In this document: positions 7,379-44,854 of the stretch, piece after piece
Numbering within the stretch: position 1 is the first letter of the stretch
How the letters are laid out: each line of letters starts with the position of its first letter
Origin: Tetradesmus obliquus
Taxonomy: Eukaryota > Chlorophyta > Chlorophyceae > Sphaeropleales > Scenedesmaceae
NCBI GenBank assembly: GCA_030272155.1
Contig: CP126195.1
Span: 3,951,001-4,015,000 of the forward strand
Length of the DNA stretch: 64,000 nucleotides
Direction of reading: 5' to 3'
Notes under the pieces: model-generated
What the model was told of the DNA's origin: nothing
Seen by the model: only the letters and a program-made list of their open reading frames with translations
Databases searched by the model: none
Translations under genes and position numbers: made by a program

Positions 7379-7642
7379 GCAGCAGCAGCAGCAGCAGCAG
7401 AGCTGCATCGGACAGGTTTCAGCAGGCAGCCAAGGGCGACTGCTGGGCAGCATCAGAAGCAGCTGCTGCAGCTGCTGATGCAGCAGCCATGCAGCAGCAG
7501 CATGGTGCTGTGTTTGTTTGAAGCGGCCCATTGTGCTCTACTGACCACGTTCTACATGCAAAGCGCTTCGTTTAGGAGTGCATGGCTGATTGTGCATGGC
7601 TTATTGTGCATGCTGTGGTGATTTGGCTGTTGTGCAATGCTT

Positions 7643-7647
7643 TGTAA
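7643..7647 (+). terminator. candidate polyadenylation signal TGTAA
   Basis: TGTAA lies 265 bases after the stop of the RNA-binding-protein gene, within the non-coding stretch 7379-8079. It is the first such motif after that stop. Confidence 0.35.
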
Positions 7648-8079
7648 CAGAGCTGATACATTTTCCCCAACCTCCACAAGTCTGCAGCACAGTCTGTCAC
7701 TTTTGTTTGCTGCAGCACAGCAGAGCCTGCTTTTCGTGCAGCTGTGGGTGTCAGGCCAACAAAGGCCAAGTGCAACAGCCAGTAAACCAAGCGCATATGC
7801 TTCAACAGCTGCGTTGCAACGTGGCAGCAGAAAAACGGATGAGAAAGGGCCTACCTCAAAAACGTGTGATACCACGCACGCAAACACATTACAGGACTGT
7901 CATTGACAGTGCCACTGGAGCCCTAGCCTGGAGCCCTGCTTAGTAGGGATTTGGCCATTTGCTGCCTCGATGCGACGCCATGCCCGGTTTGCAGCGGCTG
8001 ACACCACAGAGAAGGTCTATTAAGACAATTGAGCACGGCAAGACCGGCTCGCACGATAAAACGTTCACACGACTGCTAG

Positions 8080-23803: not shown

Positions 23804-25642
23804 TAGAAGCACGCCTCCCACGCAGTCGTTACGGCGCAGTAATTGATGCGCTCTCGGCAGGTGGCCCCACAGACGGCGAGGACAGGGGCCAGTGGCTGCT
23901 GCCATGTGCACTGGCATTCAATTGGATGGATTGCGTCAGCAATGATGCGCTGACCAGCCTGCTTTGGACGCTGTCTCTACACGATCTACCACCACACGAC
24001 GACCCAAGGACGCTGCCACGGCTGACGCCACGCAACATCGTGCTTGCGCTGCTGGCAGCAGCGCTTCAGAATGTCTTGGGGATGGCGGTGAACTTTTACG
24101 TGCTGGTGAGCGCGCGCATTGTGCAGAGAGGATGCTTTTTGAAGCATGCAAGCAGGCTAGTCAAACGCCCAAGGTTTGTGTGTGGTGGCAGAGAGCTGAG
24201 CATGGGGTGAGAGACAGCAAGCTTGTGGCATGCATTAAGCATGTAACTTCACGGCTTGATACTGCTGATGTACTGTCTGAGGAGCATTCCTTGCAACATT
24301 TACTTACACCCACAACATAACCCCAAACATGCCGTGCTCTTGCAGGGCTATCAGGCCACGCAGGGCTGTGCATGTGCATGTGTAACAGCCGCAGGCGCAA
24401 GCCGCCAGCTGAAGCCAGCATACCTGGCTTACCTCCACACACTCAACCGGGACAACAGCGCAGCAGCCACAACCATCAAGCTCTGCCAGAGCTGGCTCGC
24501 TGTCAGCACGCTGTGGAGGCTGCTGCAGCTGCTGCGGGTGAACCTGCTGCTGGGCTGGCTGTGGCGCAACATGCTGTGGCCACTGCTGCTGGGGCTGGTC
24601 TGGCGGCCACGCATTGTGACAACGGTGAGGCACATGCGTGCAGTCCAACTTGCTAGCCAGCACACATGCTTACCCATACACATTCACATGCATATGCGCA
24701 TGTTTTGCCCCCTGTTTTCACATATACACATGTGTCAGCATAAACGCACACACACGGGCACATGCACTCAGCAGGCCAACCATGGCTGATGCTCTTGACC
24801 TAGCCAGGGTGAGTGCCAGGGTGACTGTCTGGCACATGACGTGCGCCCTGCGCATCTGCTGCCCTGCCTTGCATGCTGTGCTGCAGGTGCTGTCCAGCGC
24901 TCTAATGACTGCATGCTGCAGCGTATGGCTGGACCCACAGCTTCACCCAACAGACCCTGTCTTCAGCAAGTTGCCTTTTTTCATCAGCATGCAAGTGCTG
25001 GTAGGTCCATTGCGGCAGCGGCTGCGTGCAGAGCTCAGCAATCCGGTTGCAACAACAGGACACTAATGCAGCAGTTGTGCGGCAACTGCTGCGTATACGC
25101 CACCCAGCTGCTGCATTTGTAGAGCCGTTTTTTGATGAAGTGCGTGTGAATAATCATGTGTGTATGTGGGTGCTGACAGAATGCAGATGGCGGCATACAA
25201 AACTACTGTGGTTGTGGCGGTTGTGTCTGTATGATGAACACACTCGCGCTGCAGGAAGCAGAACGTTCGCTCACACGGGTAGTGCCTTTGCTGCACTACG
25301 CTTCCCTGCCTGCAGATCCTGGTGATGGGTGGCGGCTGGCTGACCGTAGCTGCGCTGCTGCTAGCCGCAACTTTCCACCTGCCACGGCTGCCGAAGCATC
25401 CGCTCTGGCCTCACATGGACAATTACATCAGTGCTGTGATGTCAGCTGCCAGCTTCCTTGCTCCACTTTGGCCTTAGTGGTGGGTGCGCTGGATGGCATG
25501 GTTTACGCTGGTGTGTGACCTCATAAGTTGGGCTCCAGACGCGCTGCAGAAGTACAGGGCAAAGCGCGCCTGGCGGGCACAGTACGGCAGCCTGATGCAG
25601 ATGAGCTCAGCAGCAGTGGCAGCAGCACAGCGCGCACAGTGA
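23091..25642 (+). pseudogene. CS-domain membrane protein, copy C (frame break and in-frame TAG)
   Basis: Exons 23091-23214, 23413-24105, 24346-24624, 24887-25000 and 25316-25642 align with copy B, with start MPFSADSGMQEPEHELAVV. The CS domain is intact in exon 2. The frame then runs through a long AGC/CAG run near 23745-23805 and stops at a TGA; the continuation (YGAVIDALSAGGPTDGEDRG) is in another frame, so one frame shift lies in or near the run. In exon 5 a TAG at 25475-25477 replaces the Gln codon expected after LAPLWP by alignment with B and D. Downstream codons stay conserved to QMSSAAVAAAQRAQ and TGA. TAG is an ordinary stop in neighbouring genes, so this copy is probably inactive. A sequencing slip in the triplet run could explain the first break but not the TAG. 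Confidence 0.75.
23742..23805 (+). repeat. CAG/AGC triplet run in copy C exon 2
   Basis: About twenty near-perfect AGC triplets encode polyserine in the CS-domain frame. The equivalent part of copies B and D has only short Gln/Ser stretches, so this is a recent expansion. The frame break of copy C lies near it. Confidence 0.9.
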
Positions 25643-27838: not shown

Positions 27839-27993
27839 ATGGGTCCACCTGATGTCGAACAGTTCTGCGGAGAGTGGCGGCCAGCGTACCTGCAGGTATA
27901 CTTGCTAACCGTTTATTTGGGTGTTTATGGGTTTGATGTACGCCTAAAGCGGTTGCATTGAAGTTCTTGCTGCCTGCAGGCCATCCTGTGCCG

Positions 27994-28026
<33 letters not shown>

Positions 28027-28415
28027 TGCTGCTACAGGGTCCCCTGCCGCCTATCAGCTCAACTTGTCATACTGCTGGCTACCCTAGTACCTATCTATCG
28101 CGTTACTCATCTCATGTTGTCAAGCTGGCTGCTGTCGCTGCTGTTGTCAATCCGCCATGTGCAGGCTGTGCGTTAGCATTGCGGTTGGGCACTGGCCTCA
28201 CGTTTCTGGCTAGTGCGCAGTACTTGAGCGCACGAATGTGCCACTTGCAACCCGCGCTACACCGCCTTGACTGATATTGCTGTTGCTCCTGCTGCTTCCA
28301 GGGTTATCTTCAGCCGTGCAGGCTTTGCTGCGTGTCTGCCGGTGTGTACACGTAGTCTCAGTGCCGCTGTGTGGGTGCAGGCTCTGTTGCTGCCCGCTTT
28401 GCTTACTGCTGCTGT

Positions 28416-28460
<45 letters not shown>

Positions 28461-31338
28461 AGGGTCCCCTCATCCCTGCCGGCTTTGCCGCCTGTGTGGC
28501 TGCCACCCCTGATGCGCCCTGCCTGGTTGCTGAAGATGGCAGCAGCATGAGCTTTGAGCAAGTTGATGCTGCTGCCACGCAGCTGGCCCGGCGGCTGGTG
28601 GCCAGAGGTGTTGGCAAGGATAGGGCAGTTGGCATCCTGTTTGACAGGCAGCCTGCTGTGGTGGTGTCCATGATTGCTGTGCACAAGGTGAGCGGTGCGG
28701 CTGCCTGGCTATACAATGATTGCTGTGGAAAAGGGCCCCAGTTCTTGAACGGGGTGTCAGCTTGCTGGCTGGTGGATGAGGCAAGGTTCAGTCCTAAAGG
28801 TGTTTTGCATTTATACGAAGTTGCTTTGGCTGTTGTGCTGTTCAACAATGGAGGTGCAACAGGTATCAGCGTTACGTATGTTTGACAAGTAAGCATTCAA
28901 CATGCACCTCACTCGTTTGTTTGTCAGCGTATGCACATGCCTTGGCAGGAGGTGAATCTAGCCACAATACAGCTGCTGCTGCTGATCTGCGCAGGCTGGC
29001 GGCTGCTACTTGCGTCACAGCATCCCAAGCCTTCACATGTCTACTCAGACCTCTAACCTATCTGTTTCTACTGTTGCTGCTGCTGCTGCTGCTGATGTTG
29101 CGACAGGCTGGCTGCTGCTACGTCCCCCTTGACCCCGGCTTCCCTGCTGACCGGCTGGCCATCTACCTTGAGGACAGCGAGGCACTGGCACTGCTTACTG
29201 AGCCTGCACAAGCCCAGCTGGCCATGAGCCTCGTTGCAGGGCTGCCGCTGAGTCCGCAGGTAAGACGCGCAAGCTAGGTTGCAGCTTACAGCAGGCCATA
29301 TGCGGTTTGGACGATGACATCAGCGTAGGCACTGTGGGTCACACCAGAAACACAACCATGTCCACCAGTGGCAGTAACACATTATCCCTTCTCCTTTCCC
29401 TGCTAGTATCATGCAGGCAATCCCAGACACTACTGCGACTGCGCCTGCTGCTGCTGGTTGCTGCTCGCCCCTGTCCCTTCCATAATGCAGATCATACTGT
29501 ACAACGATCCCACAGACCCAGCTGCCAGTGATGCCTCCATCACCCTGCCTGACCCTGCCAGCATCAGCGAAGACGATCTGGCCTACATCATGTTCACCAG
29601 CGGCAGCACAGGCAGGCCCAAGGGCGTGATGATCCCGCACAGGGGTGTGAGGGACCTGGTGGCATTCAATGTGGAGCACTTCAGCCTGAGTGAGTGCTGC
29701 TGCTTGTGCCATCAGCTGTTTTTAGCTTGTTTAAGCGTGACATGATCCCCCACAGGGGTGTGAGGGACCTGGTGGCCTTCAACATTGAGCACTTTGGCCT
29801 TGGTAAGCTCAAAACAGAGTGTACAAGATAATAAAGACAACAATTGGAGGTATGATCCGGGTGTTTTGCACTGTTTGGCTTGATCTGTGATCCTCCACAG
29901 GGGTGTGAGGGACCTGGTGGCCTTCATTGTGGAGCACTTCGGCCTTGGTGAGCCCCAAAGATTTTAAGTTCAAGGCACTAAGATTGAAGCAACCATGCTT
30001 GTGCTGTGCACTGTTTGGCTTGATCTGTGTTCCCCACAGGGGTGTGAGGGACCTGGTGGCATTCAACGTGGAGCATTTTGACCTGAGCGAGTCAGCTATG
30101 CAGCTGCTGTTGTTACTATCTGAAGGCGCTGATGTGTTATACCACAACACCACGGTGTGCTGTATACTTCCGTGAAATCTACGCCTTGCACATATCATGA
30201 TCTCCTGCAGCCTGGATGCCCTCTGCAACTGTCCATGCTGCTGCTGCCGCTGGCTTGCTTGCATGTTCCTCAACTCAAAGCGTTCTGCCTCAACTCAACA
30301 GTCTGCTTCAGCCTCACAAACGTCTCTGCTGCTGCTGCTGCTGCTGCTGTCACCACTCTGCAGGCTCCTCTGATGTGTTCTGCCTCAACTCCACGGTGTG
30401 CTTCGACTCCTATGTCACCTACGTCTTTGCAGCCCTCACGCTTGGAGCCAAGCTGGTGGTGCCAGGCCCCACTGCTCACCTGGACCCTTATGGAATGGCA
30501 GCACTCATTGCACAGCAGGGCATCAGCTGCATGGAGGTGGTGCCTGCACTGGCTGCGGAGTATTTGGGTGCTTTTAGGGAGGCAGGGGAAGCGCTCGCCT
30601 GCCTGAGGTACATGCTCACAGGTGAGACGCGTTGAGCATTCAGCGGCAGTGCTGCAACAGGTTGTACAGCTGGTACTTGTAGCATGTCCCAGTATGCTGC
30701 AGTGGTCCAGTTAGTGGCGGGGGCTGGAAGCATCAGCTGCATGGAAGTGGTGCATCAGCTGCATGGAAGTGGGAAGTGCAGTTGTGCATGGAGGTGGTGC
30801 CTGCACTGGCTGCGGAGTACCTAGGGGCGTTCAGGGAGGCTGGGGAGTCCCTTGCCTGCCTGAGGTACATGCTCACAGGTGAGACGATATTGCCAGCAGT
30901 TGGATGCAGCAGATCTGCTGCAGCGTGTTGTGATGTGACCAGCTTAGCAGGGGCAAGGGAGGCAATGATGGTGCTGGCTTGGCTGCTGTACATGCTCACA
31001 GGTGGGGCGCAATAGAACACAGCAGTGTTATGTCAACTGTTGCAGCGTGCTGCAGTAATGCTATGCTTCAGGCCAGTCAATGCAGTGGAGGCTGGGAAGG
31101 ACCTGGCATGTCAGCCTGAGGGACATGCCAACAGGTAAGGCCAGGCTACAGACAGCCTGGCTGCGTGTCAGTTCAGCAAGTGTATGGGGCGCATATACAC
31201 ATGTTGTGCCTGCTCTCCAGCATGTTGGCAGGTGAGGTGCTGCGCAGGAGCAGTATCTACAGCTATGCAAGGAGTGCTGCCCCTGCCACGTGCGTACCTC
31301 TGCGCTGCTGCCGCCACTCCACCGCTGCTGCTGCTGCC

Positions 31339-31419
<81 letters not shown>

Positions 31420-31756
31420 ACTGCTGCTACTGCCACCACCCGCCGCCTTTGCTGCTGCTGCAGGTGGTGAGGCGTTGACCCCCAAGCTTGCGGAGGAGAT
31501 CTGCGCAACGCTGCCAGGCCTGGCACGGGGCGGCCTGTTCAACAGCTACGGACCCACCGAGGTCACAGTCACGGTGAGCGCTGCGCGGCCTGCGCGTCTC
31601 GTCACGCTCTCCAGATGTCACGTCAGAGCCTGACGCTGGGCTTCACTGCTGCTGTTCTTCTACATGTGCCACCGGTTGTTGTTAGCAGCTTCACTGCATG
31701 CTGAAACACAGCTCAGACAAACACTGCATATGCGCTGCTGCTGCTGCTGCTTCCGC

Positions 31757-31796
<40 letters not shown>

Positions 31797-34700
31797 ACCA
31801 TGCATTTACCATGTCACTACCCTTCACCCAGACCATCACCGGACACATCCAGACACCCTCTGTCCGCATCCCCCTGGGCAGGCCACATGCACGTACTGCT
31901 AACATCACTGCTTCCGCTACTTGTTGATGCGTATCCTCTTGCTGCAGACCATCACCGGGCACATCCAGGCACCCTTTGGCCGCATCCCCCTGGGCAGGCC
32001 AGACCACAACGTGCACGCCTACGTGGTGCTGCCTGATGCAGCAGCAGCAACAGCAGCAGCTGATGCTGATAAGGGTGCAGAGCAGGGTTCAGCAGCAGCA
32101 GCAGCAACAGCAGATGACAAGCAGCAGCAGCAGCAGGGCAAGTGGCGGCTGGCAGCAATTGGGGAGCCTGGGGAGCTGTGGCTGTCAGGTAAGTGCAGCT
32201 TGTAACAGCAACAGTAACAGTAACAATAACAGTAACAGTAACAATGTTTCTGTCTTGCATTTGCCTTTGCACGTGATGGTTTCTGTAGGTCTTTCATGCA
32301 CCAGAGCCAGACTGGCCGGGTGCGCTATGCCACTTGCATGTGCAAGCACAGCTGCGCTATCAGCACCTACATTGCCACCACGACGATGCGGAGGATCCGT
32401 AACATGTGGTGCCCAGACTGAGCATTCACAAACCCCCATGCTGTTGCAACTGCTTTTTTCTGCCTTTCCTTTTGGCATGCATGCAGGGCCCCGCTTGGCT
32501 CGCGGCTACCGCAACCGCCCCGAGCAGACTGCTGCCGCATATGTGCCCAACCCCTGGTTCGAGGAGTCGACGGCTGCCCTGAAGAGTTGCGGCAGTGCCA
32601 GTGACGCTGCTGCTGCAGCCGCCCTGCGTGAGCACTACAGGCTGGCCTACAGGACGAGTGACCTTATTGTGATGGGAGAGGATGGCCAGGTGAGCATGGG
32701 TGCTGCTGTCTGTCCATTTGTGCTGCATCAATCGGCGCTTGCAATAACATTCCTTCTTATCCAGCCCTGTCCAATGCAGCAACAGACGTTGGCTGCCAGC
32801 ACCCGCCGGTGCCTGTCCACTCACACAAAACACATAGTGGCAGCTGCTCCTTATGCACCTGCTCGACCAAGCTGTCAAGGTACGCAATCACGCCGCCTTG
32901 AGACACGCTGCTGCTGTCTGCATGTTCTGTTGCCGCTGCCTGTGCACCAACCTTGCAGCTGGAGTACCTGGGGCGTGCTGATCGCCAGATCAAGATCAAC
33001 GGCGTGCGCATGGAGGTCAGCGAGGTGGAGGCGGTGCTGGCGGGCGCACCAGGTGCGGGCTTTGATGCAGCATACTTCAATGCACCAAGAACCTGTGAAT
33101 CCGGCCTTGCAATAAATAGGGGCATGCATGGATGTAGAGGTTAGCGAGGTGGAGGCGGTGCTGGCGGGCGCACCGGTGGGCGCTGTTGCGTGTTTGAGTG
33201 TTTGCGTGTGAATTTGCAATTGATGCATGTTGGGTTATTGAGTAGATTCCAAAGAGGTGGAGGCGGACCTAACGGGCGCATCCATTAGTGAGTTGTTAAT
33301 ACTGCTTTCGCCATGACGATATAGATAGTGGGAAGGCATGGCTGAGGCTGCTGTAACAGCTGGCAGGAAAATGCAAGGGCTGCAAGGACACAGCCAGGTG
33401 CGAGCCCGCTGCAATGCATGCAGGAGCTGCCAGCTGTCAGCAGAGCAAACTGCTGGTCAGGTAGCCTCAGCCAATAGCCGTTTGAGGGGTTACACACTTT
33501 CAAGCACCGAGAGCGGCACAATTCAACAAGAGGCAAGACAGAGGAAAGGCGAAAGCAGCAGACAGGTGCAGGCACCGGCAGCAAAGGGAAGGCAGGGGAC
33601 CAGCAATGAACAGGTCCCCAAACAAGCCTGGCGCAAGGGCGCACAACGCAGAAACAGGCAACGCAGGCCTGCAGCAGAAACACTGCAAGAGCTGCAAAGC
33701 ACCACACACTATGGGAAGCAACCAGCATCAGCACAGCTATCAAAGCTGCACGACAGCGCACCACTGTCAGACGCTGCATGGCAGCGGACATGACACTGTA
33801 ATGTAGGGGCTGCAGCGGGCAACACCATCTCGTTGCTGCAAGGCAGCATAAAACCATGAAACCCAGCGAGCGGCACAGGTTCGGCAGGAAGCGCGGCACG
33901 TTGTGCATGTTGCGCAACTACTCTGCGGCAACTGACAACCAGTGGTCAGTCACCTGAAACCAGAGGCACCCCTAGCAACACAGCCACTGCAGCGCCACCA
34001 CCCAGTGCACAATGCGGAACAGTAGCCACAAAAAAAAGGGGGCGGGAAGGGCGGGCGAGTTGCAGTTCGCATGAACAGCAACGAAACGTGCAGGGCTAGA
34101 CGCCTGCGCATGCTAAGTGGCCTTCGGCAGCAGTGAGGTAATGACGTGTTATGACTGTCACCTCACCCACTGCTTGCCTTTGACCAGGCAAGCAGGGATA
34201 CAGCTACGCTGCATTAACCGCAATGAACAAGTCCATTGCTCATTAATACTGCTTTCGCCATGACGATATAGATAGTGGGAAGGCATGGCTGAGGCTGCTG
34301 TAACAGCTGGCAGGAAAATGCAAGGGCTGCAAGGACACAGCCAGGTGCGAGCCCGCTGCAATGCATGCAGGAGCTGCCAGCTGTCAGCAGAGCAAACTGC
34401 TGGTCAGGTAGCCTCAGCCAATAGCCACATTGAAAAGACCAGTGGAACAGGAAGGGGGAGGGCTGCAAGCAGCAAGGCTTGCAGCCCACCTGGCCCGCCG
34501 CAACACGGCGCGCAGATAGAAGCCACAACACATGTGGCAGGCAAACAAATAGACGAACCCCAGCGCACACCACTAACGCAGCAAACACTCACGCTGCCAA
34601 ACCTACGCCGCTGAATCCAGGGCTGGGGCCGATAACTGCTGCGAGAAGCATCAGCCTTTGCGCAGCAAACACCTAGCTGCGGGACCAACTGCAAGCTAGT

Positions 34701-37700
34701 GCTCGATGCGAACAGCTAGCAAGGGCCAGGAACTGTGGCGCCGAGCCATAGGGCCGGTGAGCGTCGAACAAGGCAGCTGGAAGCTGTCAACCGCAAGCAG
34801 CATCAGCTCATGAAACCAAGGCTGAGCCGGCCACAAGGCACCACCACCGTAACATTTGCACGCTCTTCGCGCACTTTCTGCACAACCTGCAGCAACATTG
34901 AGGTGGTGACAGGCGGGAAAGCAAAGGCATTGCCCCAAGCAGCCCATGGCTGCAGCAGGGCATCAACGCCCCTGCTGCCAGGGCACTGGAACAAACTGTA
35001 GAAGCAGTGACAGTGCGTGTTTTCCGCCGAAGCAAACAGGTCTATTTTGTGCGGGCCCCACATAAGATCCAGCCAACTAAACATCTCAGAATCCAGGCGG
35101 TAGTCCCCATGGTCAACAAAGCGAGAAGGTGCATCAGCTCTATTAAGTTCTGATTTCACCCTGACCACCTGCAGCTGAACATGCAGATCTTCAAGCACAG
35201 ACCACAACAACCTGTACTCTACCATGAGAGCAGCGGACCGTGAAGCAAAGCGCCCCAAAACAGACTCTGTCACCGTGTTATCTTCATGCAGCCTCACCAC
35301 ACGATCGCGCACCACAGGCTCAAAAGACAGCAGAGCCATGCGCACAGCTCGCATCTCCTGCTGGTTGATGTGCATGCACGCTTCAGCAGCAGACCAGGCG
35401 CCGTGAGCAACCCCTTCGGGGCGGTCGCCCAGGACAGGCAGCACAGCGCCCCAGCCTGTGGGACATGCATCAACAAACAAATCAACAGTAGCCGGGCGCA
35501 ACCGAATAGGCGACGACAAATGCTGCACAGGGATGCTCGCCCACCACTCAAGATCACGGAAGGACTGGCGGGAGATGCTGACAGTCCCATTCCAGCCAGA
35601 AACAGACGCACAATCGTCATACAAACTACGCAGAAACAGGTTGGCCGGCATGACAGCCAGCCGCACAGACTGCGCATATCCACAAAATGCAGCCAGCTCT
35701 CGCTTTGGCGCGCGGCGCTTGTTCTGCTTGGCAGCAATAGCAATGCCGCGCGCCAGGCGGGTGAGGCGGGCAACCTTGGCTGGGGGCACACAGAAGGTGC
35801 CTTGGGCCAGGTCCACAACCAGGCCCAAATGCTCCAGCCGCTGGGTGGGCTCCCACACAGACTTGGTGGGGTGGGGCGTAAAGCCAAGCCAGTACATTAT
35901 GGATTGGATCCACTCAGCACCGGCTGCTGCTGTCTCCTGGTCAGGGAACACAAACAAAAAGTCATCCAAGTAGGGCAGTACCTTGCAGCCAACCTGCGCT
36001 ACACTGCCACGGCTGCCAGGCGCTGCAGGGTACATGGTGCCTGACGGCACACGTGTATGCGCAGGGGAGCGCAGATGCGCAACAAAAGGCCTAGTCACCT
36101 TGGTGAAGTAGTAAGGCGAGTTATTCCAGCCGAAAGGCAAGCAGTTGATCTGATAAAACTCGCCAGCAAACTCAAAGCAAAAGTAATCGACTGCGCTAGC
36201 GTGCAGAGGCACCTGATAGAATGCGTCTGCCATGTCAGCCTTGACAGCAAAGGCATTGCTCAAGTCGTAACGCTGCAAAAACCGCAGTGTCTCAAACCTG
36301 CACTTGCGGGCGACATTGAAGGTGTTGATATACTTGTAATTGATCACCAGACGCCAAGAACTGCCCTTCGGCACACAAAATGCATTAGAGCAGTATGCAG
36401 AGCGGGAGGCAAGCTTGGTAAGCACACCCAACTTGCTGAGGCGGGGCGCTTCAGTGCACAACCACCATTGCTTTTGGGCGTTGGTAGATGGCAAAGGGTT
36501 CTTGTAAAAGGGGGGCGGCGCGCGGCCACCCAGCCACTCTACAGGAACACCATGCTGCAGCCAGCTGAGCACATGCGAAGATGCACCAATGGCACGCCAC
36601 TGCTTGCCGCACAATCCTAAGCGCCTGTGCAGCGGCGTGCTTGCAGGAAAGCTGTGCACGGCAACCATGCTCAGATGTCAAGAAAAGGCACCACAATGAT
36701 GTGCCCCACACAGCTGCTTAATGACACAACAGCTGGGTGTTCAGACGAGTAGCCTAATGACTGGCCGTTACGTGGGAGCCGCCCCACACTCGCCTGCTGT
36801 GTGCGCAGGGCGCTTACTGCACTGCTGCTCCAGCAGATGTGCTGCCAGAGCCCATGCCTCCGTTGCCAGTGCTGCTGCTGGCTGTGAAAGCCTGCAAGCT
36901 GCTCCAGCCGCCTGTCGTGGCGCCCATGCGCAGCGCGCTGCCGAACTGGCGGCGCGCAATCAGGTGTGCGCTGCTGCTGCTGCTGCGACGGCGCACACTG
37001 CCAATGAGGCTGCTGTTCTCGCCATTGCTGCTGCTGCTGTGGCTTCTGGGGCTGTCAAAGCAGCCACTCAGCGCCAGCGCTTCACCTGCTGAGCTCCAGC
37101 TGCTGTTGCTGGGGCCCAAACAACCCCTCATGCTGAGGAGGTAAGCAGCCATACGTAGCTGCGTGCTGACGTGCAGCAAAATGCCGGTCTGTCGGGACTG
37201 CACTGTGAAGACAAGCTCCAGCCGCTGGTGCTCCTGCCTGACGCTGGTGCTGCTGCGGCGCCTGCTGCTTGTGTCACTTATCTACACCCCTAAGCGGAGA
37301 TAGCTGACCTTAAGAAACTGCGGAAAGCGCATTTACTCAAGCCCAGCGTGCCAAAAGGGCTGAAAGAGCACGCGACGGCCGCAGGTAGCCGTGCGTTCAG
37401 CTGCCTCTGGCCGACCTAAAGCAGGTCCTTAGTTTGTTCTCAGATATACGTAAGAACGATCTGGAGATATTCGGAGGTATTAATGGATTGATTTCAGAGA
37501 AGTGATGAAAAATAGGACGTGTGCAACACTCCAAACGCTACCGAAGTAGCGAGTCGAGTTGCAGTTCGCATGAACAGCAACGAAACGTGCAGGGCTAGAC
37601 GCCTGCGCATGCTAAGTGGCCTTCGGCAGCAGTGAGGTAATGACGTGTTATGACTGTCACCTCACCCACTGCTTGCCTTTGACCAGGCAAGCAGGGATAC

Positions 37701-40700
37701 AGCTACGCTGCATTAACCGCAATGAACAAGTCCATTGCTCATTTATTTAAGCTTCTGGGTTGTTTGGGGTTTGGTAGATTGGTGTTGTAATGATATAGTG
37801 GTGATCCGCATGGCGGCGAGCCGTGAGGTGGTGGCAGCGCTTGACAGCAGTAGGTGCGTCATGTGTGGCTGTGCATGCTGTGCAGATGACACGTGTCAGT
37901 TCAGCCGTGTCTCCAGAAACTGTGATATGATCAGCCCAATAACGCTGCGCTGCTGCCTGTTGTGGTTGTCGCAGGTGTGACGCATGCAGCAGTCAAGCCG
38001 TGGAAGGATCCAAACGGCACGTACCGCCTGGCTGGCTATGTGGCCCCTGACAGCGTCGACCTGGCGGCTGCTGAGGCGCACTGCAGGGCCAAGCTGCTGC
38101 CGGCAATGGTGAGACTGTAAACTGTCATATAACATGTAACATATGTTACATATCAACTTGCATAAACCAGCTCGTTGTCGGCAATACAAGGCCAAGTGAT
38201 TGCATGTTATCCACAGCAGGCCGGCTAGCAGCTGCTGGCTGGTGTTGCGGGCTGCAGCGCCTAGACCCTTATTTAAAACCCTGCCGCGTCAGCATCAATA
38301 GTCTTGTCTCAGCTTGACACATGCAACTGGTAAATCTGCTGTGCTGCCTCAGGTGCCTGCCAAGCTTGTGAGCCTGCCAGTCATGCCCCGCCTGCCCAAC
38401 GGCAAGATTGATGTCAAGTCTCTGGCAGAGCCGGAGTGGGGGCTGGTGCGTGGCGCCGGCAGCGGCAGCAGCAGCAGCGGAGAGATTGAGGCCCCTGAGA
38501 GTGACATGGAGGAGCTGCTGGCTGGCATCTGGTCTGAAGAGCTCAAGGTGGGGATTTGAGGTCTTGATTGTGGTTTACTAACCCCTGGTAGGGCTCAAGC
38601 TTAGGCAGTTATAGTCCACCTGAAAGCGACATGGAGGAGCTGCTAGCGGGCATCTGGTGTTAGGAGCTCAAGATGGGGACTTGAGGTTCGATATTTGTGT
38701 ACTGTTTCTAGGAATCTCTCGTACTGGCTACCATCTGGAGTGAGGAGTTCAAGGTGGGGACGCTTGCTTGTTGCCCGCAGCAGATGACCTGAGAATGGCT
38801 GCTGCTGCGCTTGCCGCTGCACTTTTGGCATGCTTGCAAGGCTGCAGCACTGCTGTGTGCTGTGACAGCTAACCATCATGATATTGTGCTGCTTGAATCT
38901 ACAAGTGTAACCAAGGGTGGTGTAATGTAACGTACATTGCGCTTGCACGGTCTGCTTGCTGCAGGTGGAGCGCAGCAGCCTCAGCACCAAGAGCAACTTC
39001 TTCGAAATTGGCGGCAACTCGCTGCGTGCCGGGCTGATCAACTCCAAGATTCGGCGCGCCACAGGCCAGGACATATCAGGTGAGCCGCATGCTGCTGCTA
39101 CTCCTGCTACTAGTAGGTGTGGGCTGTGCGCGTGCCTCTGCTGATGAATCTTAAACCTCTCAGTACTACAGCCTGGTATGATTCAGTGTGTGCTAGCACA
39201 AGACCTGACGGGCGCACTGGTGGGGCAGGATGCTCGGGCACATATGTATGCATGTATACATGTGAATACAAGCGGTGTTGCCCTTTAGAAAGCGTCACCC
39301 CCTGATCCCTGCACGTTGCCACCTGCAGGCCTGCTGATCTACCAGCACTCCACAGTCGCCGCCATGGCGGCCGCCATCGAGTCTCAGTACGGCAAGTTTG
39401 AGCTCACCGACATCGTGTCCCGCCAGGGCAGCTTCACCCCTATCAAGGCAGGCACCAGCTTCGGCCCCGGCCGCAGCGGCAGCGGCAGAAGCAGCAGCGG
39501 CAGCAGCAGCAGCGGCAGCAGCTTCACTGACTCATCACCTGACGGCCGAATGCACAGCGGCAGGGACTGGCAGGGAGGAGTTAACAGTGGTGGTGCTGGT
39601 GGTGGAGGGTTTGGGGACATTGCAGAAGAGAGAGTGAAGGCTGCTGCAGGGCTGCGGAGGCTGGGCAGCAGGCCGCTGCCGGTGTGGCTGGCGACTGTGC
39701 TGCAGATTGGCGGCATGGTGCTGCTGGGGCAGGTTGCCTACGTGTTCGTCTGCACGGCACTAGAGGTGAGCGGCGTGGCAGGCGGGTGCACCAGGACGTG
39801 ACAGCAACACCATGGGCTACATTTAGCAAAAGAGCGTGGCAGAGCATCACCTGTTGAGGTGAACCAGAAGCAACTGACTGGATAAGCAGCAGGCACTGCA
39901 CGCGCTTGAAGCTGCTGTCAAACTACACGTAGATGGCGTCACCAGCTGCCGCAGGCCGCAGCCACATGTCCGATGTTGGCCCTGACCGCTTGCTGCTGCA
40001 CCACCCTTCCCGCAGGCCACCTACTACTATGCCACGCTGCAGCCGCACATCCTCACCGTGCCCTTCTTCGCATTCGGCATGACCACATTCGGCATGGTCA
40101 CCATGCTGCTCTTCACCGTAGCCTTCAAATGGGTCATGCTCGGCAAGCAGCAGCCGGGCGTGCACGCAATTTGGAGCTGGTACTACGTACGCTGGTGGCT
40201 CGTGCGCAGCAGCTATCGCTTTTCGATCTTCTGGCTGTTCGTGCTGGTGCGGCGCACGCCCGTGATGGTGTGGTATCTGCGCGCGCTGGGCACGAAGATC
40301 GGCAAGAACGTGTCGATTGATTCGTTCAACATCTCAGATTGGGACCTTGTGGAGATTGGTGATGACACAGGTGCGTGTTGCAGCTACGTCCACTTTGTTT
40401 GATTGTTTATTTGCTGGGTGCTGCACCTAGGTTTCTGCGTGTTGTATTGTTATAGGGTTTTGCTTGTCTGCCCAGCGCATCCAGTGCCGCAGTGACGCAA
40501 CTTGCGTATCACCAAACTGTTGACACTCTAGATGACTGGTTGAGCCGTGCCGCTGCTGCTGCTGCTGCTGCTGTTGCCTGCCTTGTGCAGTGATTGAGTC
40601 TGACTCCTTCATTGACGGCTGCAGCTTCCATGCAGCCAAGGAGCCAGGGGGCAGGGGCACCATGGTGAGCCCAACTGCACTGTCGAAATTGCACCGCTCA

Positions 40701-43700
40701 ATTGCATTGTCGACATGTCCGCTGGCACAGGTCTTCAAACACCTTGGATGCGTCCTGTTTTCTGGAGCAACAGGTTGCCATCCCCCTGCAGAGCACGCGT
40801 GAAGGTCACAGCGTGGCTGAGGCCTGGCTTACCGGCGCGCCAAGCTGCCCGAACCATGCTATTAGTGTACGCTGCAGCAGCCTATCAGACATGACACCCA
40901 CCGCATGTGTATCCCCGCTGCCGCAGGTGCTGGGCCGCGTCAAGGTGGGCCGTGGAGTGACGCTGCTGCCCACCAGCATCGTGTCCCACGGCACGGTGGT
41001 GCCTGACAACTACCTGCTCACACCAGGCACAACCTCACAGCGCCTACCCCCAGGGCCAGCAGGTGGGTGCCTTGACATACACAAAATGTGAACAACAGCA
41101 TGAATGTAGTGTGTGCATTGTTCAGCCTGTAGCTGGGTGTCACAACTGCTCCAGGCTGGTGCCCTAGTATGCCAGCCTTGGCCTGCAAGTTGCAGGCGTC
41201 TCTATGAAGCATCGGTTGCTTGCTGCTGATACATTGCCACCTCAAACAACCTTGGACCAACCAGCACACACTGCTGCAGCCGTCACAGCGCGCGCAAACC
41301 TTCCACTTACGCTCAACGCCGAATCCATCCAGCCTCTGCCATGCACTGCTCTGACCAAATGTGCACAACTCTCCCCTGCCTCACTGCAGATGCAGCAGCG
41401 CACGCGCAGGTGCGCGCTGAGCACGCCATGCTGCCCCTGCCCCTCAGCCTGGCCACGGTGGTGCTGCTGCTGGCGGTCATGTCCTGCATGTGGCTGACCA
41501 TGGTGCCCAGCATCTACATCTCCCTGGAGTTTGCAAAGGAGCTTGTCGACGTGCGACTCAACACATGGGATCGGCTGATCGTGGCCTCGCACACCTGCTG
41601 GATCGGAGGGGCTTATCGAGATCCACTAGGGAAGCAGGGCGAGACGTACACGCTGTGCCACACGCTGTGGTGGGCGCTCACGATCGGGCTTGCAATCGCG
41701 CCGGTCGCTGGTTTCATCACGGCCAGCATCTACATGTGGCTGATGGTGCCGCTCAAGTGGCTGATGGTGCCCAAGATGAGCCAGGAGAAGATGCAGAACG
41801 GTGAGCCTAGGCCTGGTGCTGCGTGACATGTTTCAAGGCACGCGCGGCGCTGAGTGTGTGAGCTTGACCTGATACTCAGCGTGCAGCTGGTGTGCGTCTG
41901 ATAACCTGCCTGTCTGCATGGCGGCTGTGTCTTTCATTTGGCCATGCAGCCCGCTTACAATCAGCATTCGCTCAGTGCTGTCAACCTCAGTCAACAGGCT
42001 GCGCTGCCGAATGCTCTCGTGCGTTGTCATCCCGCCACTGCCACCTGTGGCGCTGCAGGTGGTCTGTGGCTGGCGTGGCGCCGCCACGCTTTCAAGTGCC
42101 TCATGGCGGGGCCCTTCCAGACCATCGTGTGGCAGTTCACAAGCACGGAGGTCTTCAATGCATGGCTGCGCGCGCTGGGCTCCAAGGTCGGCCGGCAGTG
42201 CTGGCTGAGTGAAATGTTCAAGTGCAGCGAGTTTGAGCTGTACGAGGTGGAGGACACTGCCAGCGTGTGCAGGTGCGGCGGATGGTTAGGAGTGCATTCT
42301 TGTGGTTCTTGCTTTCAGGGTTCACTTTTGAGATGAGCTGTTCAAGTGCAGCGAGTTTCAGCTCTACGAAGTTGAGGACACCGCCAGCGTATGCAGGTGG
42401 GGCTGATGATGTAGGGGTTAAATTGTTGTGGTTCTTGAGTTCAGGGTTTATTCTAGAAAGAAGCTGTTCAAGCGCAGTGAGTCTAGATTGTACAAGGTGG
42501 AGGACACAGCCAGCGTGTGCAGGTACGTGCGGTGAAAAACTTAGGATTCACCTTTCAGGAATTAGGCAGGCTCTCTCACCGACCCGCATGACGTGGTGGA
42601 TAGAGCCAGCGTGTGTGTCTGATATCTAGCTTGCTGGCTGCTTGAAGCTTGATTTGCTCATTTCAGGCAGATCTGCGGTCACTAAGCCTCAGTGCCATGC
42701 CATCAGGCTGACAACTGCCAACGCCCCTGCTGCTGTTTTCCTGCCCTTTTGCACGCTCCCCTCTCGTGTAGCATGGTCACCGTGTATGGCGCAACCTCTG
42801 GCCTCACCGCCCGCGTGAAGCTGGGCGAGGCGTGTGATGTCACCAACGACTGCACCCTCATGGCAGGCACGACAGTGGGCAAGAATGCATGCCTGGGCGT
42901 GTTCACGTATGGCGCGCCAGGCCAGAGCTTTGAGGACTACTCCATCACACTGGGAGGCTTCAAGCTGAGGTGAGGAGGCGGGCTGCTGGTGATCTACATT
43001 AGTCAAGCTGCCAGTTGCAATTGCGCTACGTCTAGTGAAGCACTGCTGCTTCATGTTGTGTGCCTTGATGGCTGCCAGCTGTGGCAGGTAGCTGTCAGAG
43101 GACGTCTTCAAATCATACCATGCGCGCGCAGCTGCTGGCAATGTGTATCTCAACTTCACTGGGCTGTCCTTCTCACCTCACCCTGCTGCCGCTGCTGCTG
43201 CCGCCGCCGCAACATTGATTCCCAGGTCCGGCGGCAGTGCCGCAGACATCGAAGCCGGCCTCACCTCCGGCAAGTTTGAAAACGCAGCTTCCCGCCTGCT
43301 GCCGATGTGGCAGTACGCGATCTACAACGTGCTCTACATCATCGGCGCGAATTGCATCTTCACGCTCACGAGCTTTATGATGACCGTTCCGGGAGCAGTG
43401 CTCGGCTTCTACGCCTTTTTCCACTACGGCTATTTCCTCGGCGCCGCGTTCTCGCCTGCAGTTATTGTCGGCAGCTGGGTGATATTTGTTGCGTATCTGG
43501 CGCTGTTGAAGAAGCTGGTCATGGCAGACAGCGGCGGGCAGCATGCAATTTTCAAGAGCTTCGGCGCCGGGCGCTGGCAAATGCTGTGCATCAATGCACA
43601 CATATATGCCGATTTCAACGGCTTCAAGGGCTCATTGGTGGGTGGCGGCTTGCACAGATTTCGCGGTTTGTCCCGCAGATCTTGCGCTGTGTCCCACATA

Positions 43701-44618
43701 TCTAGCTCTGTGTCCAACAGATCTAGCTTTGTGTCCCACGGATCTAGCTCTGTGTCCCACACCTCTGCGGCTGCTGTGCCGTGCATTTGTGTGGTTGAAG
43801 CGGCCACCTGGCAGATGCTGTACATCGGCTGCAACAGGCATGCATGTATTTATGGCCTAATCATCATCATAACCATGCAGAGCTTGACACCATGGTGGCC
43901 AACCCTGTTATGTACGCAGCATCTGTACAAGCGATCTGCCGCACCTGCAGCTGCAGTGCACCGGCAGCGCACACCTAACGCTTTGCTACCGCTGCCGCCC
44001 TCTGCCACCTGCAGCTTTACAACTGGTACCTGCGAGCCATGGGCACCAAGGTGGGCAACGATGTCTTCTGCCTGGGCGGCGTGGTGGCCGAATACGAGCA
44101 AGTCAGCATTGATGATGGGGCCGTCATCGCAGATGGCGCCTTCTTGTTAACACATACCGTGGAGGCGCGCCATGTGAAGATCCGGCCGATCAGGATCGGC
44201 AAGCAGTGCACGGTGGGCGCGCTGAGCGCGGTGCTGCCGGATGCAGCAATGGAGGACGGCTCCACGCTGCAGGAGATGTCACTGGTGAGCCCCCGCTGCA
44301 AAATAAGATACATGGTATTGAGGGTTTCCAAATAGACGAGACATTCTGCTGTGCTGCCAGCTTCAGCAGCACGTCCTGCTTACGGACAACCACTGATCCG
44401 GTAGTCCATATCTAACTGGTGGCTCATCAGGCGTTGGAGTAAACTTCCCTGGCGCAGGCCAACCGCTGTAAAACATGTGGTATGCCGGGCTGCACTCACA
44501 CTGCTGTGCTGTTGTATCTGACCTGCAGGTGATGAAGGGTGAGACAGTGCCGCGTGGCGCCAGCTGGGCAGGCGTGCCTGCTAGCCCAGCGCTGCCAGGC
44601 ATCAAGTACAGCCTGTGA
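27839..44618 (+). CDS. NRPS-like A-T protein with membrane acetyltransferase-like terminal region (epsilon-polylysine synthetase architecture)
   Basis: Exons: 27839-27895, 28463-28687, 29107-29259, 29491-29689, 30364-30621, 31464-31573, 31948-32188, 32487-32689, 32959-33052, 37975-38108, 38353-38547, 38965-39079, 39329-39765, 40016-40370, 40591-40664, 40927-41062, 41390-41800, 42059-42272, 42772-42969, 43226-43637, 44015-44284 and 44529-44618. All introns are GT-AG or equivalent and phases close to 1526 residues. Residues 20-600 are an adenylation domain: [11 protein letters not shown] near 180, [40 protein letters not shown], and LPNGKID with K576. A carrier domain follows ([14 protein letters not shown]642). 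From about 760, three pairs of membrane helices alternate with hexapeptide-like segments ([68 protein letters not shown]). There is no classical condensation or thioesterase domain. This matches TIGR02353 and Streptomyces epsilon-poly-L-lysine synthetase, in which the C-terminal part joins amino acids into chains at the membrane. The substrate here is unknown; the Asp in FDSYV fits an alpha-amino acid. The first exon is the least certain. Confidence 0.88.
28405..28462 (+). repeat. CTG run abutting the exon 2 acceptor of the NRPS-like gene
   Basis: About nineteen CTG-type triplets run directly into the CAG acceptor of exon 2. A similar run at 27994-28036 ends in CTACAG followed by GGTCCCCTGCC, a duplicate of the exon 2 start (GGTCCCCTCATCC). 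The acceptor region was therefore copied with its repeat. Confidence 0.88.
29742..30165 (+). repeat. three intronic copies of the NRPS-like exon 4 edge
   Basis: Segments 29742-29804, 29889-29950 and 30030-30090 each repeat CACAGGGGTGTGAGGGACCT and continue to the EHF-(S/G/D)L donor region of exon 4 (residues [15 protein letters not shown]). The period is about 140-150 bp. The third copy continues into sequence resembling the start of exon 5 ([12 protein letters not shown] against [12 protein letters not shown]). None has the rest of exon 4. Confidence 0.9.
30732..31136 (+). repeat. intronic copies of the NRPS-like exon 5 edge
   Basis: Bases 30786-30881 repeat the exon 5 end almost exactly ([20 protein letters not shown], then YMLTG) and include a GTGAGACG donor. 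Shorter, more decayed copies of the last ~50 bases are at 30950-31006 and 31086-31136. A 20-bp piece (GCATCAGCTGCATGGAAGTG) is repeated at 30730-30775. Confidence 0.88.
31316..31463 (+). repeat. long CTG run before the exon 6 acceptor
   Basis: About 120 bases of imperfect CTG triplets end 20-25 bases before the CAG acceptor of exon 6. It reads CTG on the sense strand, as in other introns of this gene. Confidence 0.9.
31735..31890 (+). repeat. CTG run plus copy of the exon 7 start
   Basis: CTG triplets at 31735-31795 are followed at 31831-31890 by a copy of the first ~60 bases of exon 7 with its CAG acceptor ([18 protein letters not shown] against [18 protein letters not shown]). Here the 5' edge of the exon is duplicated, upstream of the real exon. 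Confidence 0.9.
33126..33290 (+). repeat. intronic copies of the NRPS-like exon 9 edge
   Basis: Bases 33126-33175 repeat the exon 9 end ([13 protein letters not shown]) with a GT after it. A shorter copy is at 33256-33290 (GTGGAGGCGG, then GCGCATCCA). The DIRS-like element begins immediately after the second copy. Confidence 0.88.
33296..33479. repeat. split direct repeat A, outer copy
   Basis: This 184-bp sequence is repeated without visible differences at 34243-34426. It marks the left edge of the DIRS/PAT-like element in window coordinates, beginning TTAATACTGCTTTCGCC. Confidence 0.9.
34056..34426. repeat. fused internal B-A repeat
   Basis: This internal block joins repeat B (34056-34243) directly to repeat A (34243-34426). 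Such a junction serves as the template for circle formation in PAT-like elements (established for the family). Confidence 0.9.
34803..36668 (-). CDS. DIRS-type reverse transcriptase / RNase H
   Basis: This is a 621-codon open frame on the minus strand inside the mobile element. The reverse transcriptase palm is visible through [27 protein letters not shown] and the catalytic YLDDFLF. An RNase H domain follows with [29 protein letters not shown] and [12 protein letters not shown]. The C-terminus ([20 protein letters not shown], then [15 protein letters not shown]) is the conserved post-RNase-H segment of DIRS/PAT/Ngaro polyproteins. The protein would copy the element's RNA; integration would need a tyrosine recombinase that is not seen here. 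Confidence 0.9.
   Translation of the reverse strand: MVAVHSFPASTPLHRRLGLCGKQWRAIGASSHVLSWLQHGVPVEWLGGRAPPPFYKNPLPSTNAQKQWWLCTEAPRLSKLGVLTKLASRSAYCSNAFCVPKGSSWRLVINYKYINTFNVARKCRFETLRFLQRYDLSNAFAVKADMADAFYQVPLHASAVDYFCFEFAGEFYQINCLPFGWNNSPYYFTKVTRPFVAHLRSPAHTRVPSGTMYPAAPGSRGSVAQVGCKVLPYLDDFLFVFPDQETAAAGAEWIQSIMYWLGFTPHPTKSVWEPTQRLEHLGLVVDLAQGTFCVPPAKVARLTRLARGIAIAAKQNKRRAPKRELAAFCGYAQSVRLAVMPANLFLRSLYDDCASVSGWNGTVSISRQSFRDLEWWASIPVQHLSSPIRLRPATVDLFVDACPTGWGAVLPVLGDRPEGVAHGAWSAAEACMHINQQEMRAVRMALLSFEPVVRDRVVRLHEDNTVTESVLGRFASRSAALMVEYRLLWSVLEDLHVQLQVVRVKSELNRADAPSRFVDHGDYRLDSEMFSWLDLMWGPHKIDLFASAENTHCHCFYSLFQCPGSRGVDALLQPWAAWGNAFAFPPVTTSMLLQVVQKVREERANVTVVVPCGRLSLGFMS
37555..37743. repeat. split direct repeat B, outer copy
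   Basis: About 188 bp matching 34056-34243. It marks the right edge of the element in window coordinates and ends TCCATTGCTCATT. Confidence 0.9.
38612..38757 (+). repeat. two intronic copies of the NRPS-like exon 11 edge
   Basis: Bases 38612-38672 and 38706-38757 repeat the end of exon 11 ([17 protein letters not shown]) and the following GTGGGGA donor region. Substitutions break the frame (for example TAG within the first copy). The period is about 90-115 bp. Confidence 0.88.
42334..42615 (+). repeat. intronic copies of the NRPS-like exon 18 edge
   Basis: Copies at 42334-42392 and 42467-42523, with a fainter one near 42580-42615, repeat the exon 18 end ([18 protein letters not shown]) and the AG/GT donor. 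The period is about 130 bp. Confidence 0.88.
43673..43860 (+). repeat. 21-bp minisatellite and exon 20 copy in intron 20
   Basis: Bases 43673-43766 hold four to five units of a roughly 21-bp motif around TCTAGCTCTGTGTCCCAC. Bases 43800-43858 resemble the exon 20 segment encoding [14 protein letters not shown] (here [17 protein letters not shown]). Both lie between exons 20 and 21. Confidence 0.75.
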
Positions 44619-44755
44619 GGCTGTACAGCATATGAGGCAGCACAGCATGTGAGGCAGTACAACATGTATGTCAGCACAGTAGGTAAGGCAGTACATCATG
44701 TGAGGCAGTACAGCATGTGAAACAGTACAGCATGTGAGGCAGTACCCAGCAATCA
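44606..44755 (+). repeat. minisatellite built from the NRPS-like stop-codon region
   Basis: The final codons and stop of the gene (GTACAGCCTGTGAGG) are followed by about seven ~20-bp units of the form GTACAGCATGTGAGGCA. The coding end itself looks like the first unit, so the 3' edge of the last exon appears to have been amplified. Confidence 0.85.
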
Positions 44756-44854
44756 GCATGTGTGTGGTTCAGGTATACCTACGTAGTCCAGCAGCTAGTA
44801 TGCCATGACAATGGCAGCAACATCTGGCAGTTTGCGATGCGGGACGGGCGAACG

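Follow-up and report, generated by a model that had tools for sequence, protein, structure and literature searches.

Conventional nonribosomal peptide synthetase (NRPS) modules work with condensation domains. The Pls-like genes on actinobacterial plasmids (BHT-5-2; Kitasatospora sp. NBC_00039) encode proteins with neither a condensation nor a thioesterase domain, in which an adenylation (A) domain and a carrier (T) domain are followed by three pairs of membrane helices alternating with three hexapeptide-like units. Bacterial enzymes built in this way link copies of one amino acid into a polymer with antimicrobial action. A gene with the same layout lies in the green alga Tetradesmus obliquus, at positions 27839-44618 of a stretch of 64,000 nucleotides, called here the window (assembly GCA_030272155.1, contig CP126195.1, positions 3,951,001 to 4,015,000). 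It differs from the plasmid genes in having 22 exons, a longer linker and inserts in the A domain, and its protein, about 26-27% identical to theirs, has another substrate pocket, scores much lower with TIGR02353 (the NCBIfam profile for Pls/PosA) and replaces residues that are fixed in relatives.

PosA, the delta-poly-L-ornithine synthetase of Acinetobacter baumannii, shares with the algal protein its architecture and an Asp at the first pocket position. For its membrane part, predictions give six helices under three left-handed beta-helices, packed as one domain with approximate threefold symmetry, like sugar-nucleotide acyltransferases, and the same paper stated in 2023 that no structural information existed for the membrane module of the family (PMC10522769). 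The Pls/PosA-type family is already reported from eukaryotes, in fungi and some others. Epls of Epichloe festucae, a eukaryotic gene of the same architecture, is presented as the first of its kind; it has a Lys pocket, its product has been demonstrated to be epsilon-polylysine, and it is 51% identical to S. albulus Pls (PMC7179176). The algal genes fall outside the sampled bacterial groups and do not have this pocket. A 2023 survey lists homologues in fungi, Amoebozoa, Metazoa and Alveolata, and its main text nowhere uses the words algae, plant, Viridiplantae or Chlorophyta (PMC10522769). A literature search for poly-L-lysine synthetase together with alga found no algal gene by title or by the start of the abstract, which is no claim that algal members are absent from print. 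A survey that found NRPSs in 7 of 32 algal species looked for condensation domains, and so would miss this enzyme by design (PMC4661987).

I propose that the product of the gene is a functional NRPS-like synthetase, bound to the membrane and made of a single module, with the Pls/PosA architecture of A-T followed by three units of a membrane-helix pair and a hexapeptide domain, and that the gene is one of two copies in the alga, in a lineage strongly diverged from every bacterial and archaeal member sampled. The balance of the evidence tips slightly towards this proposal.

An intact gene and its second copy

The gene was rebuilt from the sequence as 22 exons on the plus strand that all join in phase, with GT-AG borders at each of the 21 introns and a TGA stop, giving 1526 residues. 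The sequence-only reading had arrived at the same figures. Its observation of an intact spliced gene with adenylation, carrier and membrane parts is confirmed. The features are these (window coordinates):

27839-27895, 28463-28687, 29107-29259, 29491-29689, 30364-30621, 31464-31573, 31948-32188, 32487-32689, 32959-33052, 37975-38108, 38353-38547 (+): exons 1-11 of the whole gene
38965-39079, 39329-39765, 40016-40370, 40591-40664, 40927-41062, 41390-41800, 42059-42272, 42772-42969, 43226-43637, 44015-44284, 44529-44618 (+): exons 12-22 of the whole gene
28463-33052 (+): exons 2-9, core of the adenylation domain, residues 20-514 (AMP-binding 29-364; TIGR01733)
30405-30419 (+): pocket positions 1-3, D226, S227 and T230 (pocket alignment)
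30534-30536 (+): pocket position 4, E269 (pocket alignment)
37975-38547 (+): exons 10-11, C-terminal subdomain of the adenylation domain, catalytic Lys in LPNGK (AMP-binding_C 504-576; code position 10 is K)
38965-39079 (+): exon 12, centre of the carrier domain (PP-binding 613-678)
39019-39021 (+): phosphopantetheine Ser642 (Ser in 54 of 54 relatives and in both algal copies)
39329-39765 (+): exon 13, end of the carrier domain, fast-evolving Gly/Ser-rich linker and first membrane helix (linker substitution ratio; hydropathy)
40016-41062 (+): exons 14-16, second membrane helix and unit C1 (hydropathy and conservation; profile-profile alignment)
41390-41800 (+): exon 17, second pair of membrane helices (hydropathy 1005-1041 and 1087-1115)
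42059-42969 (+): exons 18-19, unit C2, including W1181 and S1204 (conservation; profile-profile alignment)
43226-43637 (+): exon 20, third pair of membrane helices and conserved Lys1365 (conservation; profile-profile alignment)
44015-44618 (+): exons 21-22, unit C3 with Thr-His, Arg1459, Glu1433, Leu1452 and Ala1458 (Hexapep; conservation; profile-profile alignment)
44153-44155 (+): His1454 of unit C3 (conserved Thr-His)

The assembly comprises 104.66 Mb in 17 contigs, and the window gene is on contig C5. The intron structure fits a green alga, as do three RuBisCO small-subunit matches lying near one another on contig C17, since green algae have that gene in the nucleus. TIGR02353 matches the assembly six times: three times in this gene, twice at a locus on contig C7 and once, weakly, on contig C14. 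The last 119 residues match seven times, at the C5 and C7 loci only. A spliced alignment of the C7 stretch yields a paralogue of 23 exons and 1510 residues, with GT-AG at every intron, a homologous first exon and a stop directly after the last residue, and so apparently intact. It is 74.9% identical to the window gene over 1499 pairs. Nineteen of the 21 introns of the window gene recur in it at the same position and phase. Of the other two, one lies two columns away and intron 8 has no counterpart; two further introns occur in the paralogue alone. When its protein is aligned back onto the window, 20 of the 22 exons are recovered exactly; exon 13 ends at 39765 or 39774 (9 bases apart), and the last exon differs by the stop codon only. 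The score of this back-alignment is 5653, against 200 and 232 for the controls (a shuffled protein and another stretch). It is because a full-length paralogue aligns exon by exon, and because of the back-alignment with its controls, that the exon chain amounts to more than chance.

The ratio of nonsynonymous to synonymous substitution rates (dN/dS) between the copies is 0.274 overall. It is 0.184 in the A domain and 0.181 in the T domain, 0.679 in the linker, and 0.386, 0.300 and 0.222 in the three successive membrane units (TM-C1 to TM-C3, each a helix pair with its hexapeptide unit). Such values, well under 1 in both halves, indicate purifying selection on both since the duplication, so that the window gene and the C7 copy both look like working genes; constraint on both halves in turn argues for one working protein. 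The paralogue and the purifying selection are the main evidence that the gene probably works and that its halves belong together.

It might be objected that the gene is a pseudogene, a misassembly, or two neighbouring genes wrongly joined, and a retroelement in intron 9 and fragments of exons repeated in introns give the objection some footing. Against it stand a frame open over 22 exons, the recurrence of the A-T-membrane order and of the intron positions in a paralogue on another contig, and the low dN/dS of both halves. An artefact of this sort is scarcely credible. Bacterial contamination is rejected by the 22 spliced exons, the large contig and the intron-sharing paralogue; on this the claim that the gene is a genuine nuclear one holds.

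Architecture and family resemblance

Four Pfam domains lie above their cut-offs: AMP-binding (29-364, 3e-70), AMP-binding_C (504-576), PP-binding (613-678, 3e-11) and Hexapep (1466-1498). By Pfam alone a hexapeptide unit passes its cut-off only in C3. TIGR01733 also exceeds its cut-off over the adenylation domain (7.7e-100), and TIGR02353 matches in three stretches after residue 760 (E=3.7e-60). Hydropathy of the C-terminal half gives six segments in three pairs (about 780-809 and 822-850, 1005-1041 and 1087-1115, 1305-1331 and 1339-1370), with one further borderline segment at 84-102, inside the A domain; in the C-terminal half of the paralogue just four regions exceed the same threshold.

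At least 587 relatives were confirmed. The best 80 of the 587 were taken, and 50 of these were extracted to thin out near relatives. The alignment of 54 bacterial and archaeal sequences used below consists of 49 of the extracted ones (the fragment L028 was dropped) and five of six plasmid loci of Pls/PosA type. The sixth, L004, was left out for its split annotation: on this Pseudonocardia plasmid an AMP-binding protein (4043-5329) and a Pls/PosA protein (5626-8016) are annotated as two adjacent genes, either a split version or a broken gene.

Comparison of profiles carries the resemblance over the whole membrane module. A profile of the two algal copies, aligned with one of 41 bacterial and archaeal sequences, matches over columns 58-746 of 752 (615 aligned; Prob 100; E=1.1e-67), that is, from the second helix to the end and through all three units. 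In one chain with this module stand the A and T domains before it, as in Pls/PosA proteins in the broad sense, and the paralogue aligns end to end. Pfam, hydropathy and the profile alignment thus agree on the alternation of membrane pairs and hexapeptide-like domains that had been read from the sequence. Pfam found no condensation or thioesterase domain in the gene, as the sequence-only reading had maintained, and an exon-by-exon search of the 104.7 Mb assembly for the condensation domain PF00668 gave no match (4 of 14 control genomes did give matches). The gene thus lacks the condensation domain that marks a multimodular NRPS. A search of PDB sequences with the algal membrane module returned only carrier-domain matches and a few of hexapeptide type or related to it.

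Of the columns conserved in at least 90% of relatives, 61 of 76 are kept in the A domain of the window gene, 9 of 11 in its T domain and 10 of 12 in its TM-C1. Both copies keep the Ser of the T domain, the catalytic Lys, Lys1365, Glu1433, Thr1453-His1454, Arg1459 and Glu1502; the Thr-His and the Arg of unit C3 are also conserved in relatives of PosA. An enzyme to modify the T domain may exist as well: a candidate phosphopantetheinyl transferase (PF01648) lies on contig C3 at 6378177, with 33 bits against a cut-off of 25 (E=3.7e-6) and one stop codon read through.

A changed pocket and a changed membrane module

The ten positions of the pocket were placed by what I take to be the GrsA motifs, and counted in the 47 of the 54 relatives that have all ten. 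Both algal copies read DSTELGSVTK. The published code of PosA, DMEHNGTVSK, stands in these columns in some relatives, L036 and L042 among them. In PosA, Asp217 and Glu221 (positions 1 and 3) are the most important residues, their mutants being without activity, and His260 (position 4) makes no contact with ornithine or lysine (PMC10522769). The alga keeps the Asp (Asp226), has Thr230 where PosA has its essential Glu221, and has Glu269 in the place of His260. No Glu occurs at position 4 in any of the 47 relatives, and E269 is the sole acidic residue of the algal code apart from D226.

What such a pocket would bind can be guessed at. Position 2 influences chain length, with Ala for Lys, Met in PosA and Phe for diaminopropionate (PMC10522769); by this rule the Ser of the alga suggests a roomy pocket and a long side chain. 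The algal code agrees at 6 of 10 positions with DSECYGGVTK of Bdellovibrionales, and an A domain with that code activated L-arginine (PMC10522769). It agrees at 5 of 10 with DVGEIGSIDK, a code assigned to ornithine (PMC3992020). From the Ser at position 2 and the acidic position 4, a long basic amino acid may be named as the substrate, as a weak guess.

Several observations weigh against the proposal of a Pls/PosA-type synthetase and have to be set beside the evidence for it. The resemblance of codes does not discriminate, since three Bacteroidota relatives have DMEHNGSVTK, which nearly matches PosA's ornithine code, and the algal one agrees with it equally well, at 6 of 10 positions. Position 3 is Glu in 47 of the 47 relatives and Thr in both algal copies, so that of the pair that marks synthetases of cationic homopolymers, Asp at position 1 and Glu at position 3, only the first is left. 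The curated cut-off of TIGR02353 is 423.1 bits; the window gene reaches 204.1, which is 219 bits short, and the C-terminal part of the paralogue 207.3, whereas the C-terminal parts of all seven bacterial and archaeal relatives tested score 562-760. The relationship to TIGR02353 that the sequence-only reading had predicted is thus real as a match and fails as membership. Well-conserved columns are kept much less often in the later units (11 of 28 in TM-C2, 18 of 33 in TM-C3). Residues invariant among 54 of 54 relatives are replaced in both copies, Glu by Trp1181, Asp by Ser1204, Glu by Leu1390, Gln by Leu1452 and Asp by Ala1458, and a few further replacements affect only one copy; the fixed polar residues of C2 and C3 that go with cationic homopolymer synthetases are thus kept only in part. 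With these residues gone, polymerisation may be lost or altered. At 21-28% identity, some of the column assignments may themselves be wrong.

By architecture, then, the protein would be placed in the Pls/PosA family; by the curated cut-off and by the pocket it is not a member. It appears to have the family's architecture with residues changed that are fixed in every sampled relative, and the result kept by selection.

The sequence-only reading had called the protein a synthetase of epsilon-polylysine type. Acquisition of a canonical epsilon-poly-L-lysine synthetase from bacteria, as in Epichloe, would fit the common domain order, and Epls is a eukaryotic precedent (PMC7179176). The pocket tells otherwise: two actinobacterial Pls-like plasmid genes have DAESIGTVVK, the alga DSTELGSVTK with the Glu essential in PosA gone. 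So do the TIGR02353 score, 204 bits where the Streptomyces gene has 661 in its C-terminal part, the replaced residues of C2 and C3, and the identity of about 26% to a Streptomyces plasmid gene, compared with 51% between Epls and S. albulus Pls. The tree of the module sets the alga outside the actinobacterial group, with a warning of long-branch attraction. The protein is most likely not a canonical epsilon-polylysine synthetase; that identification is rejected on pocket and TIGR02353 score, and acquisition of such a gene from bacteria is very improbable. The wider claim, that a poly(amino acid) follows from the architecture, becomes a hypothesis in view of the low score, the lost Glu and the replaced residues.

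The loss of several fixed residues makes another activity a serious rival: the protein may be a membrane aminoacyl transferase that passes one amino acid to a lipid head group, a polyamine or a glycan by acyl transfer of hexapeptide type, with no polymer formed. In keeping with this, both copies have replaced several of the fixed polar residues of C2 and C3 yet kept the His of C3, and selection persists, and the predicted packing of beta-helices in PosA has been likened to that of sugar-nucleotide acyltransferases (PMC10522769). Against it, the characterised members named in that paper make homopolymers, and the recognised neighbouring genes suggest no acceptor. Transfer of a single unit is on the whole unlikely. 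The best reading is still of a divergent algal lineage of condensation-free, membrane-bound synthetases that would each use a single amino acid.

Origin of the two halves

A phylogeny of the membrane module with the bacterial and archaeal relatives, of the kind the sequence-only reading had wanted with fungal homologues as well, sets the algal pair outside all 54, on a branch of 3.7 changes per column, where long-branch attraction is to be feared. Without the six actinobacterial rows the branch lengthens to 4.6 and the placement becomes no clearer. A branch so long gives no reading of the module's origin. None of the 54 relatives is more than 25.6% identical to the C7 copy when the whole module is compared. 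Single stretches come closer: L082, with 42% identity over about 110 residues of unit C3, turned out to be a bacterial C3 fragment.

A cyanobacterial or plastid origin is not supported, full-length matches being few in the cyanobacterial sample. Of 292 genomes from the phylum to which L007 (titled a cyanobacterium) belongs, 41 gave a match to the algal profile at E<=0.001, only 3 of them in open frames of more than 1100 residues; the remaining matches lie in frames of 58-475 residues, at E 1.4e-8 or weaker. In viral contigs there were 25 pattern matches and no relatives.

The A domain gives a different picture. The algal A domains score 418-420 bits with a profile built from 16 conventional NRPS A domains and 337-340 with one built from 16 Pls/PosA domains. 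Held-out Pls/PosA domains prefer their own profile in 29 of 29 cases, by at least 95.9 bits, and held-out NRPS domains theirs in 16 of 16, by 85-268 bits. Among solved structures compared by sequence, those of conventional A domains, of linear gramicidin synthase LgrA and of GrsA, are among the best-scoring for the algal domain. LgrA comes first, with a lead that sums two A domains; GrsA (1amu) scores 199 bits, the epsilon-polylysine synthase 7wew 127, and 8g95 and 8g97, which I take to be PosA, 119 and 117. The modules of LgrA and GrsA use condensation domains, and none was found in the algal genome.

This invites the view that the gene is a chimera, in which an ordinary NRPS-type A domain, perhaps with its T domain, was joined to a Pls/PosA-type membrane module or replaced the one that was there, which would explain the odd pocket. 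The profile scores favour it, as does the precedence of GrsA over 7wew and 8g95/8g97, and a tree of A domains splits 45 Pls/PosA domains from NRPS domains and the alga with a support of 100 (SH-aLRT, a Shimodaira-Hasegawa-like approximate likelihood ratio test). The scores are tempered by the choice of the NRPS domains, 10 of the 16 in the profile having been picked for similarity to the alga, and approximately unbiased (AU) tests do not reject a branch with the alga and Pls/PosA on one side (p 0.281 and p 0.376). Alternatively, the alga may represent a stem lineage older than the fixation of the Pls/PosA pocket. The algal A domain looks NRPS-like and appears to lie outside the Pls/PosA domains sampled, whether it replaced another or descends from a stem lineage; a chimera is an appreciable possibility, somewhat short of an even chance. 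It concerns origin and is compatible with the proposal of a working synthetase.

How the enzyme might work

If the proposed synthetase is what the gene encodes, its action would begin in the cytosol, where the A domain, judging by its intact motifs, would activate one amino acid with ATP. By the same token, the T domain, once phosphopantetheinylated, would then take up the amino acid as a thioester at Ser642. As in Pls/PosA, the C-terminal module of six helices and three beta-helices would extend a chain at the membrane by adding aminoacyl units, the conserved His of C3 possibly serving as general base, and the product would leave across the membrane.

More specifically, and tentatively, the two genes may stand for a separate algal clade, with the substrate-binding Glu of the sampled family shifted or lost, the polymerising site rebuilt, and, as product, an amino-acid polymer or conjugate not yet described.

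Repeats, retroelement and neighbouring genes

Fragments of exons are tandemly repeated in neighbouring introns of the window gene (29630-30098, 30528-31143, 31829-32001, 38494-38687, 42210-42534), and the introns of the C7 paralogue hold many such repeats of their own. They may be relics of intron growth through tandem duplication, or unused alternative exons. A 17-nucleotide tandem repeat (44605-44762) begins in the last codons of the gene and extends into its 3' flank.

Intron 9 contains a DIRS-like retroelement on the minus strand (33296-37746). Its open reading frame (34803-36677) has a reverse transcriptase match above cut-off, with RNase H and Dam-methylase matches below theirs, and its split direct repeats measure 184 nucleotides (33296 / 34243, 100% identical) and 192 nucleotides (34056 / 37555, 99%). 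The counterpart of this intron in the C7 paralogue is only 468 nucleotides long, and the insertion is therefore specific to the window copy. It looks recent.

Among the minority of the window's other coding segments that were identified there is no sign of a gene cluster: the recognised neighbours are ordinary, a RanBP2-type zinc-finger protein (5434-5904) and a carbon-nitrogen hydrolase with repeated exon pieces (8914-10595). Four copies of a family of hydrophobic proteins flank the gene on both sides, at 15442-17295, 19543-21494 and 23839-25555 on the plus strand and 49772-51816 on the minus strand. In the third copy, one segment is interrupted by an in-frame stop. Three segments of the family tested had no Pfam match, and the family was not found in 40 kb around the C7 copy at E<=1e-4. 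No tRNA and no Rfam match was found within the window.

What the gene would mean

If the enzyme works, the alga makes a nonribosomal polymer or conjugate of amino acids from a single gene, one that could easily be expressed and tested. Two copies under selection share the altered pocket and the altered fixed residues, and this would constitute a natural experiment on the catalytic needs of the Pls/PosA membrane module. And if the two genes do form a separate algal clade, polymer chemistry would have entered the algae independently of the fungal transfer and been kept there in two copies.

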